This document shows, one piece after another, positions 42,481 to 49,597 of a DNA stretch of 64,000 nt (its first letter is position 1; the number at the start of each line of letters is the position of its first letter). The DNA lies in the NCBI RefSeq assembly GCF_000301075.1, contig NZ_JH932293.1:2159053-2223052 (forward strand), given 5' to 3'. Under the pieces are notes generated by a model. The model had not been told where the DNA came from and did no database searches. It saw only the letters and a list, made by a program, of their open reading frames with translations. This DNA is from Bergeyella zoohelcum ATCC 43767 (lineage in GTDB: Bacteria > Bacteroidota > Bacteroidia > Flavobacteriales > Weeksellaceae). The position numbers and the translations under genes were made by a program.

Positions 42481-42506
42481 AGAATTTTATGTAATCTAAT
42501 TTTCCG

Positions 42507-42537
42507 TAAAGGTACGAATTGTAAAAAAGATGAGCAA
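42507..42537 (-). promoter_or_regulatory. gcvP promoter
   Basis: On the minus strand TTG (42535-42537), 20 nt, TACCTTTA (42507-42514), one base off the TAnnTTTG consensus. Confidence 0.45.
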
Positions 42538-42584
42538 AATAATTAACTATTGGCTGTTAGCTGTTAAGCACATTCCTCCCCCAG

Positions 42585-42601
42585 CCCCTCCGAAGGAGGG
42601 G
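42585..42601. repeat. GC-rich hairpin beyond the distal array end
   Basis: CCCCTCC and GGAGGGG with a GAA loop, in an otherwise AT-rich gap 50 nt outside the last full CRISPR repeat. It could end array transcription, although no T run follows on the minus strand. Confidence 0.45.
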
Positions 42602-42782
42602 AGCTTATAGTTTCTCAACAAAATATCCTTCTGTGTAAAACCTACATGAAGTTGTGATTACCCTCCAACATGAGAGCAGTTCCAACACCGCTATATGCTT
42701 TGGCTGATGAAATACCGTTGTGATTACCCTCCAACATGAGAGCAGTTCCAACTTGATACACCACTTCTTCATCAAGGAAAAA

Positions 42783-44535
42783 GTTGTGATTACCCTCCAA
42801 ATGCTTTGCATTCATGAGTTCCTTTGAAAAACAAATAAAACTTCACGAATAAAATGAGAGCAGTTCCAACACTTACGAAATCCTCACGATGCTACAGGGC
42901 GTTGTTATTACCCTCCAAATGCTTTGCATTCATGAGTTCCTTTGAAAAAACAATAAAAACTCACGAATAAAATGAGAGCAGTTCCAACGAGAGATTAAGT
43001 GCTGGTAATTACATAATAGTTGTGATTACCCTCCAAATACTTCGTATTCATGAGTTCCTTTGAAAAAACAAATAAAAAGTCACGAATAAAATGAGAGCAG
43101 TTCCAACTTCTTTTTGGAACTTATCTTCTCCATACCTGTTGTTATTACCCTCCAAATACTCTGTATTCATGAGTTCCTTTAAAAACAAATAAAAAACTCA
43201 CGAATAAAATGAGAGCAGTTCCAACTTCTTTTCATTGAAGATATTGATAGAGTGTGTTGTTATTACCCTCCAAACGCTTTGCATTCATGAGTTCCTTTAA
43301 AAACAAATAAAAAACTCACGAATAAAATGAGAGCAGTTCCAACGGAATGTAGAAAGTCGTATGAATATGACCTGTTGTTATTACCCTCCAAATGCTTTGC
43401 ATTCATGAGTTCCTTTGAAAAACAATAAAGACTCACGAATAAAATGAGAGCAGTTCCAACAAGACTTTACGATCCAACGATCGTAGCACAGTTGTGATTA
43501 CTCTCCAAAATGAGAGCAGTTCCAACTCATCATATTCTAGAAACTCCATTTTCCCTGTTGTGATTACCCTCCAAATGCTTTGCATTCATGAGTTCCTTTG
43601 AAAAACAATAAAGACTCACGAATAAAATGAGAGCAGTTCCAACAATATCGCAGATGGATTAGTTATGAATATAGTTGTGATTACCCTCCAAATGCTTTGC
43701 ATTCATGAGTTCCTTTGAAAACAAATAAAAAACTCACGAATAAAATGAGAGCAGTTCCAACCGTTAGAGAATACGATACTCAAAAAAAAGGGTTGTTATT
43801 ACCCTCCAACATGAGAGCAGTTCCAACTATACCATCTCTCCAACAATTTACAGTAGAGTTGTGATTACCCTCCAAATGCTTTGCATTCATGAGTTCCTTT
43901 GAAAAAACAATAAAAACTCACGAATAAAATGAGAGCAGTTCCAACGTGTTGCTGCATGGGAATGTCCTAAGTGGTGTTGTTATTACCCTCCAAATACTCT
44001 GTATTCATGAGTTCCTTTGAAAACAAATAAAAACTTCACGAATAAAATGAGAGCAGTTCCAACGATTTTCAAAGAAAATCTAATCCCGACTTAGTTGTGA
44101 TTACCCTCCAAATGCTTTGCATTCATGAGTTCCTTTGAAAAAACAATAAAAACTCACGAATAAAATGAGAGCAGTTCCAACGTGTTGCTGCATGGGAATG
44201 TCCTAAGTGGTGTTGTTATTACCCTCCAAATACTCTGTATTCATGAGTTCCTTTGAAAACAAATAAAAACTTCACGAATAAAATGAGAGCAGTTCCAACG
44301 ATTTTCAAAGAAAATCTAATCCCGACTTAGTTGTGATTACCCTCCAAATGCTTTGCATTCATGAGTTCCTTTGAAAAAACAATAAAAACTCACGAATAAA
44401 ATGAGAGCAGTTCCAACTAGCTCTTCTGTTATTATATCCCTCCGACAGTTGTGATTACCCTCCAAATGCTTTGCATTCATGAGTTCCTTTAAAAACAAAT
44501 AAAAACTTCACGAATAAAATGAGAGCAGTTCCAAC
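42783..44535 (-). repeat. Long-form (88-nt) CRISPR direct repeats with internal insert
   Basis: Within this span 14 of 16 repeats carry about 52 extra bases between CCTCCAA and AAATGAGAG, the loop of the normal repeat hairpin. The insert has two further hairpins. One pairs ATTCATGA with TCACGAAT, with one G-U. A small one pairs ATGC with GCAT around TTT. In the repeats at 43019, 43138, 43976 and 44212 the small stem is ATAC/GTAT, a compensatory change, and at 43256 it is ACGC/GCAT, which pairs as G-U in the transcript. Long repeats are known from this type VI-B locus; the covariation is my observation. Confidence 0.85.
43858..44329 (-). repeat. Exact 236-bp tandem duplication inside the array
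   Basis: 43858-44093 (two long repeats and two spacers) is followed by an apparently identical 44094-44329. The duplicated spacers start GTGTTGCTGCATGGG and GATTTTCAAAGAAAA. Confidence 0.95.
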
Positions 44536-45195
44536 GTTGGGAGAGAGTTATCTCGCCATCTATTAGTTGTGATTACCCTCCAACATGAGAGCAGTTCCAA
44601 CTAGGACTAGTAAATCTCCTGGTGCAAAAATGTTGTGATTACCCTCCAACATGAGAGCAGTTCCAACATCCCGTTAAAAATTGACAGCTCCTACATAGTT
44701 GTGATTACCCTCCAAAATGAGAGCAGTTCCAACCTTCTCGGTAGATTGGCGGGCATCCCCTTAGTTGTGATTACCCTCCAAAATGAGAGCAGTTCCAACT
44801 ACTGAAGTTCTATATGTACGAGCTCCTGTGTTGTGATTACCCTCCAAAATGAGAGCAGTTCCAACTATGTATGCTTCGGATATTATGGTTTTGGAGTTGT
44901 GATTACCCTCCAAAATGAGAGCAGTTCCAACAAACCAAACCTTTCTAAGGAAGAAATGCTGGTTGTGATTACCCTCCAAAATGAGAGCAGTTCCAACAAC
45001 CTAAGTCTCCTACCCCTCTTATAAAATGTTGTGATTACCCTCCAAAATGAGAGCAGTTCCAACGTGATTTCGTACCGCATTATAACCCAATTCGTTGTGA
45101 TTACCCTCCAAAATGAGAGCAGTTCCAACTTTCATTTTTTAAACCCTTTTTTATCTATTGTTGTGATTACCCTCCAAAATGAGAGCAGTTCCAAC

Positions 45196-45253
45196 CTCAA
45201 TGCTAAAAAATGAGTGTATAAAACTGTCTATCAGGAGTGTAATATCCTATATT
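45196..45253 (-). other. Array leader (58 nt)
   Basis: The gap between the cas13b stop codon and the first repeat. It is AT-rich and contains the weak inverted repeat AGGA-N8-TCCT (45235-45250). I see no TAnnTTTG box and no terminator, so the array may be transcribed from the csx27 promoter. Confidence 0.5.
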
Positions 45254-48200
45254 TTACTTTATCAGTGCTTCTTTTTCCTTTTTAAATACCTCAGCAAAAT
45301 ACTCGGCATAGGTTTTTTCTTTTTCTATTTTGCCGTATTTTTCTTGACAATAGTCCCAAAATTCTTTTTTAGGTAATTGGTTGTGTGCAAATTTATTACG
45401 AATATAGGTTAAAACAAAAGCTTTTTGTTCTAAATCGGTTGCTTCTTGTTTTAGTTGGTTAATGTTCACATCTTCAGGTTCAGTATTTAAGTTGAATACC
45501 TTATAGCTCTCCACATCTTCATTTTTAAGTTGCTTTAAAAGTCCGTTGAGAATGTAGTATTTGAAATTTTGATTATCCCCTTTTTTTAATATTTCCTTAT
45601 CTTTTACCTTTTCCAAAATATATTCCTCTATAAGGTGGACTTCCTTCAACAGTTCTTCCCTTCTCACTTTTTCATATTGCTCTATTTCTCTTTCCACCAC
45701 ATACGGATAATTTTCCTCTTCCTTACTCTCTTTGATTAGAAACGCCTGCCATTCTATATTTTCCTCATATTTTAAGAAAGCTTGAACCCTTTGGTCGTAT
45801 TCATATTTTATGAAATCTCCTACATTTTTTAGCTTTACATTTTCTACCGTAATTTTTCCGTCACACAACTTTAAATCAACGGTTTTGTTCCAAATATAGT
45901 TAGTATTTCGCTCGCCCGTTTGTCTGGCTCTCTCCTGATTTCCTAAGCGTTCCTCCCGAGATTGATACAAATCTTCTAACGAAAACTGATCGATGCTATC
46001 CTGCTTGAATACCGATTTGAAAATATGTTTTGCCATCAAAAGTGTAAACACATCGTTTTTCTTTTGTTGGTAGATTTTAGTTTTTCGTTTTCGGTCTGCT
46101 TGTTTTTTTTCCAATTCTACAAGCGGATAATTTTCAGTATCATAAAATGTCTGAAAATTCTGATATTCCTTGTAATACCTAAACCAATCGGCAAAAAGAG
46201 CTTCATTTCCTTTAAAAGTTTTTCCTTTGATTATCGTAGGTTTTTCATCCATAAAGCCCCGCTCTAAAAAGATAGGATACCCCAATATAGACTGAACCCG
46301 AGCATCTAATTCTTTGTGAGTATAATTTTGTTTTTTCAAAAATTTAAAACACTCATTTTCTACCTTTTTGAAGACTTTATTTTCGGATTTAAAGTTTTCG
46401 GCTTGTTGCACCAACCCACTGATGTATTCCAACCGTTTATCTAAATAACAAGTGTAAAATTGGTACAAATATTTTTGTTGAAAATATCCTCCCAACTTAA
46501 AAGGTAAATGCTGAAATACTTTTTCAGGCAAAAGATTTTTCAACTCCTCTTTACATTGCTCATAATACGCCAACGATTTTTGTAACAAGCTGTGTTGCTC
46601 CCCTTTCCATTCGTTTTTGAAATCGGTAGGCATAAAGCGTTTGATGTCATTCGCCAACCAAACCGCTACTTTTCCTTTTTCTCGATAATAAAGAACTTCT
46701 TTTCGTGCAGGAGCTTCAGGGTACTTTCGTTTAAGGTTATCTTTTAAATATTGTTTATGATTTCTATCTCTGACTTTATTTATCTCCCTATTTTTATCTT
46801 GATAAGCAATAAAATCATTATATTCTTTTTCACGAACCGTTTGTTCATCTTTTAATTTTTGTAGAATGTTTTGCTCTTGCTTCAAATCTTTTATCAATTT
46901 CTCTTTATCAATAGCAGTAGAATTTCCGTCTTGATAAGGTTTTAATATCTTGGCATTGGTATCTTTATCTATGATTTGCTGGATTTGAGCTTGAATTTTT
47001 CCTACGATTTTCTTTTCTAACTCTTTTCCAATTTCCTTTCTTAATTCTTTTTCACCTTTCTTTTCTAACTTTTCTTTCTTTTTCTCCCATTTATCGAAAA
47101 ACTCATACAAAATGGAATGAATGTCATTCATACTCAGATAAGCCGTGGGTTGCCCACCGAAAACAATAGCTTCTTTTGGATTGCTTTCATTGATTGGCAC
47201 TATTTCTTCTATAATGTTCTGGATAGACGGCTTGCTGGCTTTTCTTTGCTTGAGCTGATGGGCTTTTACGGCTTTATCTACTTCTGAAACATATTGTTGG
47301 TTAAGCAATTTCACTTTTATACCAATTTTCCCTGCGACAGGCTGTTTCTCTCTGTCCAAAATACTACCCGCGATAGGAAAATCTTTATCATTAACGGAAA
47401 TATTTTCCTTAGGAAAATCATAATTGGGGTTAGGAAAAATTTCCCAATAGTGTTCTCTATCTTCATTGGTTTCGGTATTTTTTATAAACAATGCTTTTTT
47501 ATGTTCCAATTCCGAAAGCCTTCCGAAAACGGTGATTTTTTCTTTTATTCTTCGGTCAGAAATCAGATTTTCTTTAGGGCGAGAATCGTGAAGATAATTC
47601 CCTAAATGCACTTGAAAACGAAGCGTAGGGAACTGAGCAAACTCATCTAAAAATCGAATGGCAAAATAATTGAATTTATCTTCGTAACGCTTGCGAATCA
47701 CTGGATGAATTACCTGCTCTTCTTCCATTGTCCCTACATCGCCATTGTTCTCTTTTAGGTATTCATTCCAATCTTCGATGAAAGTTTTTTGTACATCTTC
47801 GCTCAAATTCTGATAGACCACATCGGGTACTTTGCTCAATTCATCAAGCATCTGCATCATTAGAGTTTCTTTGGCATAAACGGAAAGCTGTTCAGCATTT
47901 TCTGCCTCACCATAGTTGATTTCAGCCGTTCTCACTTTTCGTTTCAATTTTTTGTAAGCCAAATGCGAGAAAATTTCGTGCGTAGCCATAAAACAAATGC
48001 TGTTTTTTCCATGGCTCACCGTTGCTTCAGATACCGTTGCTTCATCGATAACCGTAGCCTTAAACCCTGCTATTTTAGATTTGAATGCGTGTATTTCTTG
48101 TTTGGTGAGAAACAAAGAAAGCAGGAAGACTACTCCGTTTTTCGAAATTGGAATTTTCAAATCGCCTTCTTCTTGCTGAGGATCACTTTTGGTATTGTAC

Positions 48201-48937: not shown

Positions 48938-49597
48938 TTATTTTTTATTGTGTGTTAATTCTGCATAGTAAAGTCCGAAAATTCTGTCTGTCATTTTTAC
49001 CCGAAACCATTGGGCTATAACCGATGATAATCCACCTAGAACGAAGGTTCCTATAATAATTGTAATGATTTTCTCACTCAGCGAACAATCATTCATAAAA
49101 AAGGATGCTAATAAAAAGATAACACTCACGGGAAGTACAAATAACGAAAGCGTTACGATGTTCCGAAACAAGAAATAAATACTCTGAAAATTTTTTGCTT
49201 GGGATATTTTGCCTTGTGCCTCTAAATAATAATACGCTGTATCAAAGACACTTCCATTACTGATATTTTCTGTTACCGAAATTCCTTTATTTGTTCTGTA
49301 AATTTCTTTCAAATCAGGAAGAATTTCAGTGATGTACTCGTCATTTTTCATTTTGTCCATAGGCGTACAAGCCAATTTCTTATACCACTTTCTCTTTATC
49401 AACCAAAATGTGATGATATGAATCAAGCATCCTATAAATAGGGCAATGGCAAAAAACAACAGACCGTCGCTAAGGTTTCCTGCTGTAATGAGTGGGGCTT
49501 TCCCAAAAACATATTCCGCTGAAAAATTTATCAGCTCAATCATAATGACTCCCGGAACTACAAAGGAGAGCAATTCGTAAATAGATAATCTGTCCAT
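48938..49597 (-). CDS. csx27: Csx27, membrane accessory protein of type VI-B1
   Basis: 219 residues. I predict four membrane helices (about 9-27, 44-70, 140-168 and 178-200) with a cytoplasmic-looking charged loop between the second and third (KRKWYKKLACTPMDKMKNDEY). Csx27 marks subtype VI-B1 and has been reported to dampen Cas13b interference; how it does so at the membrane is unclear. It is the first gene of the csx27-cas13b-array unit, with a good -7 box 21 nt upstream. Confidence 0.95.
   Translation of the reverse strand: MDRLSIYELLSFVVPGVIMIELINFSAEYVFGKAPLITAGNLSDGLLFFAIALFIGCLIHIITFWLIKRKWYKKLACTPMDKMKNDEYITEILPDLKEIYRTNKGISVTENISNGSVFDTAYYYLEAQGKISQAKNFQSIYFLFRNIVTLSLFVLPVSVIFLLASFFMNDCSLSEKIITIIIGTFVLGGLSSVIAQWFRVKMTDRIFGLYYAELTHNKK

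Follow-up and report, generated by a model that had tools for sequence, protein, structure and literature searches.

The extra sequence in the long repeats of the Bergeyella zoohelcum Cas13b array is a copy of a small, dispersed, self-folding mobile DNA element family. Very probably it is an ~52-nt, two-hairpin palindromic element of Flavobacteriales that landed in the TTTT of the repeat loop and multiplied with the repeat, its compensatory base changes reflecting constraint on the element. The fold is real and belongs to the mobile element; a role in the CRISPR RNA (crRNA) is possible.

The type VI-B locus and its long repeats

The window (the whole 64,000-nt stretch of B. zoohelcum ATCC 43767 DNA analysed here) encodes a Cas13b that can be aligned over its whole length with the BzCas13b in PDB 6AAY and is identical to it within the part of the alignment shown. 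This effector, the 36-nt repeats with GTTG/CAAC ends adjoining cas13b and the Csx27 accessory gene assign the locus to type VI-B (Table 1). The crRNA strand of the array is the minus strand. Half of the array repeats (14 of 28) are long and span 42783–44535, each consisting of an ordinary 36-nt repeat (20 first and 16 last bases) interrupted by 51–53 bases. The blocks 43857–44092 and 44093–44328 are 100% identical over 236 nt, a perfect tandem duplication of two repeat–spacer units, and two spacers therefore occur twice. Long repeats are not in themselves new, because a review (PMC8209922) that refers to the original discovery (Smargon 2017) describes a 118-nt long crRNA of B. zoohelcum with a composite repeat. 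No Rfam family matches at gathering score within 42500–45300.

Table 1 Features of the cas13b locus and element copies in its long repeats (small stem as read on the plus strand)
Feature	Position in window	Strand	Remarks
Type VI-B CRISPR array	42651–45195	−	28 repeats: 14 short (36 nt), 14 long (87–89 nt); spacers all 30 nt
cas13b, 1224 aa	45254–48928	−	NF038190, E 6.6e-252; full-length alignment with 6AAY chain A
csx27	48938–49597	−	NF040557, E 4.6e-86
Element copy in long repeat 42783–42870	42799–42850	−	ATGC/GCAT
Element copy in long repeat 42901–42988	42917–42968	−	ATGC/GCAT
Element copy in long repeat 43019–43107	43035–43087	−	ATAC/GTAT; plus-strand loop TTC
Element copy in long repeat 43138–43225	43154–43205	−	ATAC/GTAT; plus-strand loop TCT
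Element copy in long repeat 43256–43343	43272–43323	−	ACGC/GCAT; G–U in RNA
Element copy in long repeat 43374–43460	43390–43440	−	ATGC/GCAT
Element copy in long repeat 43557–43643	43573–43623	−	ATGC/GCAT
Element copy in long repeat 43674–43761	43690–43741	−	ATGC/GCAT
Element copy in long repeat 43858–43945	43874–43925	−	ATGC/GCAT; duplicated block
Element copy in long repeat 43976–44063	43992–44043	−	ATAC/GTAT; duplicated block
Element copy in long repeat 44094–44181	44110–44161	−	ATGC/GCAT; duplicate of 43858
Element copy in long repeat 44212–44299	44228–44279	−	ATAC/GTAT; duplicate of 43976
Element copy in long repeat 44330–44417	44346–44397	−	ATGC/GCAT
Element copy in long repeat 44448–44535	44464–44515	−	ATGC/GCAT

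A dispersed element family

Copies outside arrays were first found with a covariance model built from 38 array inserts (R1), which matched many sites in Weeksellaceae and other Flavobacteriales—16 in a single genome (G283), and others in or adjoining IS3 and IS256 genes, in a group II intron and in heptad repeats. As R1 was made from array inserts, the non-array copies that it found could be biased towards array-like structure. To avoid this circularity, a second model (R2) was built exclusively from 52 non-array copies. R2 matches all 14 window inserts (E 1e-9 to 8e-8; covariance-model E-values are rough here) and every array insert tested, including those of Riemerella and Flavobacterium Cas13b arrays; matches at E about 1e-9 are unlikely to be due to chance. 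Hits extend to 19 of 40 genomes (that of B. zoohelcum and relatives, each a different genus), and none was found in 101 control genomes of the Bacteroides pyogenes family at E 0.001. The B. zoohelcum genome itself holds two R2 copies outside the array, both within IS982 elements. Viral contigs yielded neither the insert, in a DNA pattern search, nor Cas13b.

The dispersed copies occupy varied settings. The element lies repeatedly inside AGTTTCA-type heptad repeats in G283 (L125–L139), and GATTTGA and GATTTTA heptads flank it in other genomes. At L111 and L118 the element copy sits within a group II intron, with two copies in that genome; L111 matches Rfam group-II-D1D4-3. Flavobacterium covae carries more element-like tandem copies (L171 and neighbours), in some of which long stretches separate the small-stem arms (AATCGAAG...CTTCGATT).

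Insertion after TTT and an empty site

Excision of the insert restores the 36-nt repeat, with 0–3 mismatches to the short repeat, in all 52 long repeats compared. Every one of the 52 inserts ends in TTT, and the base triplet before the insert is TTT in 47 and TGT in 5. The insertion point falls in the loop of the hairpin predicted for the short repeat; in Bergeyella and Riemerella repeats this loop contains the sole TTT of the crRNA strand, which would set both the site and the orientation of insertion. One empty site was demonstrated, an IS3 stretch that bears the element in genome G315 and runs uninterrupted in G129 (96%) and G223 (91%). Three nucleotides (TTT) are common to both flanks there, the finding, at this one IS3 site, that bears on the criteria for miniature inverted-repeat transposable elements (MITEs), which are terminal inverted repeats, a target-site duplication and a parent transposon; no parent element emerged.

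We propose that the element, presumably mobilized by an enzyme, enters directly after TTT and itself ends in TTT, and that one copy would have landed in the TTTT of a Cas13b repeat loop. The inserted copy would then multiply along with the repeat, spreading within the array by repeat duplication. In the 118-nt long crRNA, the element would form an extra domain within the ordinary hairpin loop of the repeat and, because it is seated in the loop, would be tolerated.

Distribution and entry into Cas13b arrays

We surveyed 41 Cas13b loci from genome contigs, plus others from whole genomes. Related inserts occupy the same repeat position in three Riemerella genomes, Flavobacterium sp. J27, F. jejuense, F. 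covae and a Flavobacteriaceae metagenome-assembled genome (MAG); most other Cas13b arrays surveyed have 36-nt repeats only. In a tree with few resolved forks, array inserts group by genus, in keeping with a single founding insertion in each lineage and its later multiplication along with the repeat. The Cas13b proteins of Bergeyella and Riemerella share 21–22% identity, making separate insertions or array exchange likely.

Several independent entries, with site and orientation set by the TTT target, and one ancestral insertion seem to us evenly poised. Multiple entry is consistent with inserts found at the same place despite such divergent effectors, with an insertion site that is the only crRNA-strand TTT in both genera and with the separation of array inserts into groups by genus. 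On the other side, a tree that unites all array inserts in one clade is not rejected (AU p 0.46), and the two genera have very similar repeats, leaving array exchange possible. Within arrays, insert similarity shows no clear trend with distance and no fall; leader-end copying in its simple form might have given similarity that falls with array distance.

Other features of these arrays were also seen. The repeats closest to cas13b in Riemerella anatipestifer (L056:13299–14091) are long, which raises the possibility that long repeats are copied at spacer uptake. In F. covae (L050:14552–14650) and F. columnare (L041:14682–14780), the last repeat half leads into a conserved ~99-nt trailer that contains a palindrome (AATAGTCCA.TGGACTATT). 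Many repeat copies of the Chryseobacterium Cas13b arrays L042 and L047 differ mutually at several positions, in contrast to the uniform Flavobacterium arrays.

A conserved two-hairpin fold

An alignment of 115 copies (A4), originally fitted to another register of H1, best supports a fold of two hairpins, H1 (pairs 6–51, 7–49, 10–46 and 11–45) followed by H2, the small stem. H1 is 98% paired around a nearly invariant UC/UC mismatch, with 7–49 present as C–G in 61 copies and U–A in 41. Judged against a tree-aware null among all pairs, 7–49 reaches E 0.005 and 11–45 E 0.075; support for this register is partly selected, because one alignment served both to find it by a scan and to count its pairs. 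An outer-stem register, TCAC/GTGA, was dropped when the covariation scan gave the four H1 pairs above.

For the small stem, the tree-aware null gives pair 56–71 an E of 4.8 among all pairs and of 0.04 when only structure pairs are considered. Its fourth pair, across 104 distinct copies, is G–C in 74, A–U in 8, C–G in 2 and G–U in 2, unpaired in 3 and gapped in 15. Outside arrays the stem is 96–99% paired, with A–U and C–G replacements. The tree offers few supported branches for phylogenetically independent pair tests.

A neighbouring 8-bp stem had been described in the earlier note as kept in all window copies. Its arms, ATTCATGA and TCACGAAT, are indeed present in 14 of 14 long repeats, and most minimum-energy folds computed for the window copies include it, so it may form in these RNAs. 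Covariation in the family nevertheless favours a register other than that of the 8-bp stem (8–53, 9–52, 10–51 and 11–49), whose pair 11–49 fails in 18 of 104 copies. The two stems have two bases in common (GCATTCATGA) and therefore cannot both form in full; the ATGC/GCAT stem is absent from the minimum-energy folds of a set of folded window RNAs.

Coupled changes and selection on the crRNA

The starting observation was that nine long repeats have ATGC/GCAT as the small stem, four have ATAC/GTAT and one has ACGC/GCAT (plus strand), counts that we reproduce. The ATAC copies at 43976 and 44212 had been ascribed to one duplication; the identity of the two blocks carrying them bears this out and makes them one event, leaving three distinct ATAC copies. 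The G–U pair assigned to the ACGC/GCAT variant exists in RNA, with the correction that it forms on the minus strand only; the same holds for G–U in the 8-bp stem, since the crRNA strand is the minus strand.

The small stem is real, its fourth pair being kept in most of 104 distinct copies. Inside arrays, loops are more variable than stems (Riemerella, p = 0.0009; Flavobacterium sp. J27, p = 0.007; Bergeyella, p = 0.02), and the same is true of the dispersed copies in G283 (p 0.005). A constraint thus exists that is not special to arrays; either crRNA use or element biology is a possible cause.

The interpretation in the earlier note is partly supported: the small stem stands, but the argument from coupled changes to selection on the folded RNA is not supported. 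Copies that lie outside CRISPR arrays carry the same compensations, and within arrays one pair in one array, that of the window, alone changes on both sides (G–C to A–U). A covariation test run on array inserts alone gave no significant structure pair against the tree-aware null among all pairs (best E 3.4; small stem E 13). A within-array shuffle of the small stem over all arrays gave p = 0.08 (overall p 0.24). Because the two hairpins are conserved in and out of arrays, the compensatory changes reflect constraint on the element rather than specifically on the crRNA: matching base changes are a trait of the element family and by themselves no proof of selection on the long guide RNA.

The coupled change in the window may also have arisen in one event, such as quasi-palindrome template switching, and have been passed among the repeats by copying and gene conversion, the fold in this array being free of selection; we lean against this account but consider it tenable. 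Only one pair is doubly changed and the loop alters along with it (crRNA loops AAA, AGA and GAA), at most three ATAC rows are distinct, and the stem variants stand on differing backgrounds, which suggests exchange among repeats. The division of distinct window rows into 8 G–C and 3 A–U has a chance of 1/165 under row independence, yet the rows are related copies. What speaks against a single event is that the same replacement recurs in several unlinked non-array copies from other genomes (L086, L104, L109 and L112), and that stems are less variable than loops.

We judge it rather unlikely that the insert serves the long crRNA as a functional domain whose fold is selected via Cas13b binding, processing or activity, a proposal compatible with a mobile-element origin. 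Besides the lower variation of stem columns inside arrays, it can draw on H1 pairs that are 98–100% kept in 45 distinct array copies, on long repeats in eight arrays (Bergeyella, Riemerella, Flavobacterium and the Flavobacteriaceae MAG) and on the in vivo production of the long crRNA reported in a review (PMC8209922). However, non-array copies are under the same constraint, the insert is absent from most Cas13b arrays, and the double-sided change stays at one pair in one array. Moreover, the small stem has lost the pair that closes its loop in 12 of 37 copies in arrays versus 1 of ~51 outside (Fisher p 8e-5, related copies being counted singly). We regard as unlikely the more far-reaching idea that a mobile palindrome was co-opted as an extra Cas13b guide-RNA domain, perhaps repeatedly across genera, with array hairpins now needed for long-crRNA function (for example, processing, Csx27-linked regulation or decay resistance).

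Search for a mobilizing enzyme

No mobilizing enzyme was found adjoining most of the element copies. A Y1 transposase as mobilizer in the B. zoohelcum genome is ruled out, there being no Y1_Tnp match in the B. zoohelcum and Riemerella genomes searched (G000 and G308–G312). Locus L113 is the only one with the element near a REP-associated transposase, and no relative of that enzyme was found in G000, G308, G310 or G312. GGAG is common within the 3′ arm of the element; the criterion for a REP guide, of the GTAG type, is a tetranucleotide at the hairpin foot.

Significance and comparison with known systems

Long Cas13b crRNAs have reportedly been known since 2017. Tracing the insert to a mobile hairpin provides an origin for their extra sequence and offers a reason for the presence of long and short repeats within one array. 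It also serves as a warning that covariation in a repeat-embedded element need not imply guide-RNA function. The long repeats can further be viewed as a natural experiment on the amount of foreign RNA that can be tolerated in a Cas13b repeat loop. This structured element family of Flavobacteriales is apparently undescribed; we found no account of the element or of the origin of the insert in the searchable literature, most subscription papers lying outside the search.

Rickettsia palindromic elements are likewise small palindromes, and their insertion sites include genes and functional RNAs; they belong to another phylum, and the likeness is one of analogy only. REP elements and their associated tyrosine transposases (PMC6006769, PMC2817692) also involve small dispersed palindromes, and the Bacteroidetes TnpA subclass 2.6 (REP-type) has flanking ‘atypical secondary structures’ of which the genome holds further copies (PMC6006769). 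Unlike these systems, the B. zoohelcum and searched Riemerella genomes are without a Y1 transposase. HIP1 in a Synechocystis CRISPR repeat (PMC6604393) is also a dispersed palindrome within a CRISPR repeat, but a short methylated site, whereas the element here is a 52-nt two-hairpin insertion. A further comparison is with the B. zoohelcum type VI-B long crRNA of PMC8209922—the same organism, the same Cas13b and a 118-nt crRNA with a split repeat. Where the passage in that review gives the intervening sequence without an origin, we identify it as a dispersed mobile element that folds into two conserved hairpins.
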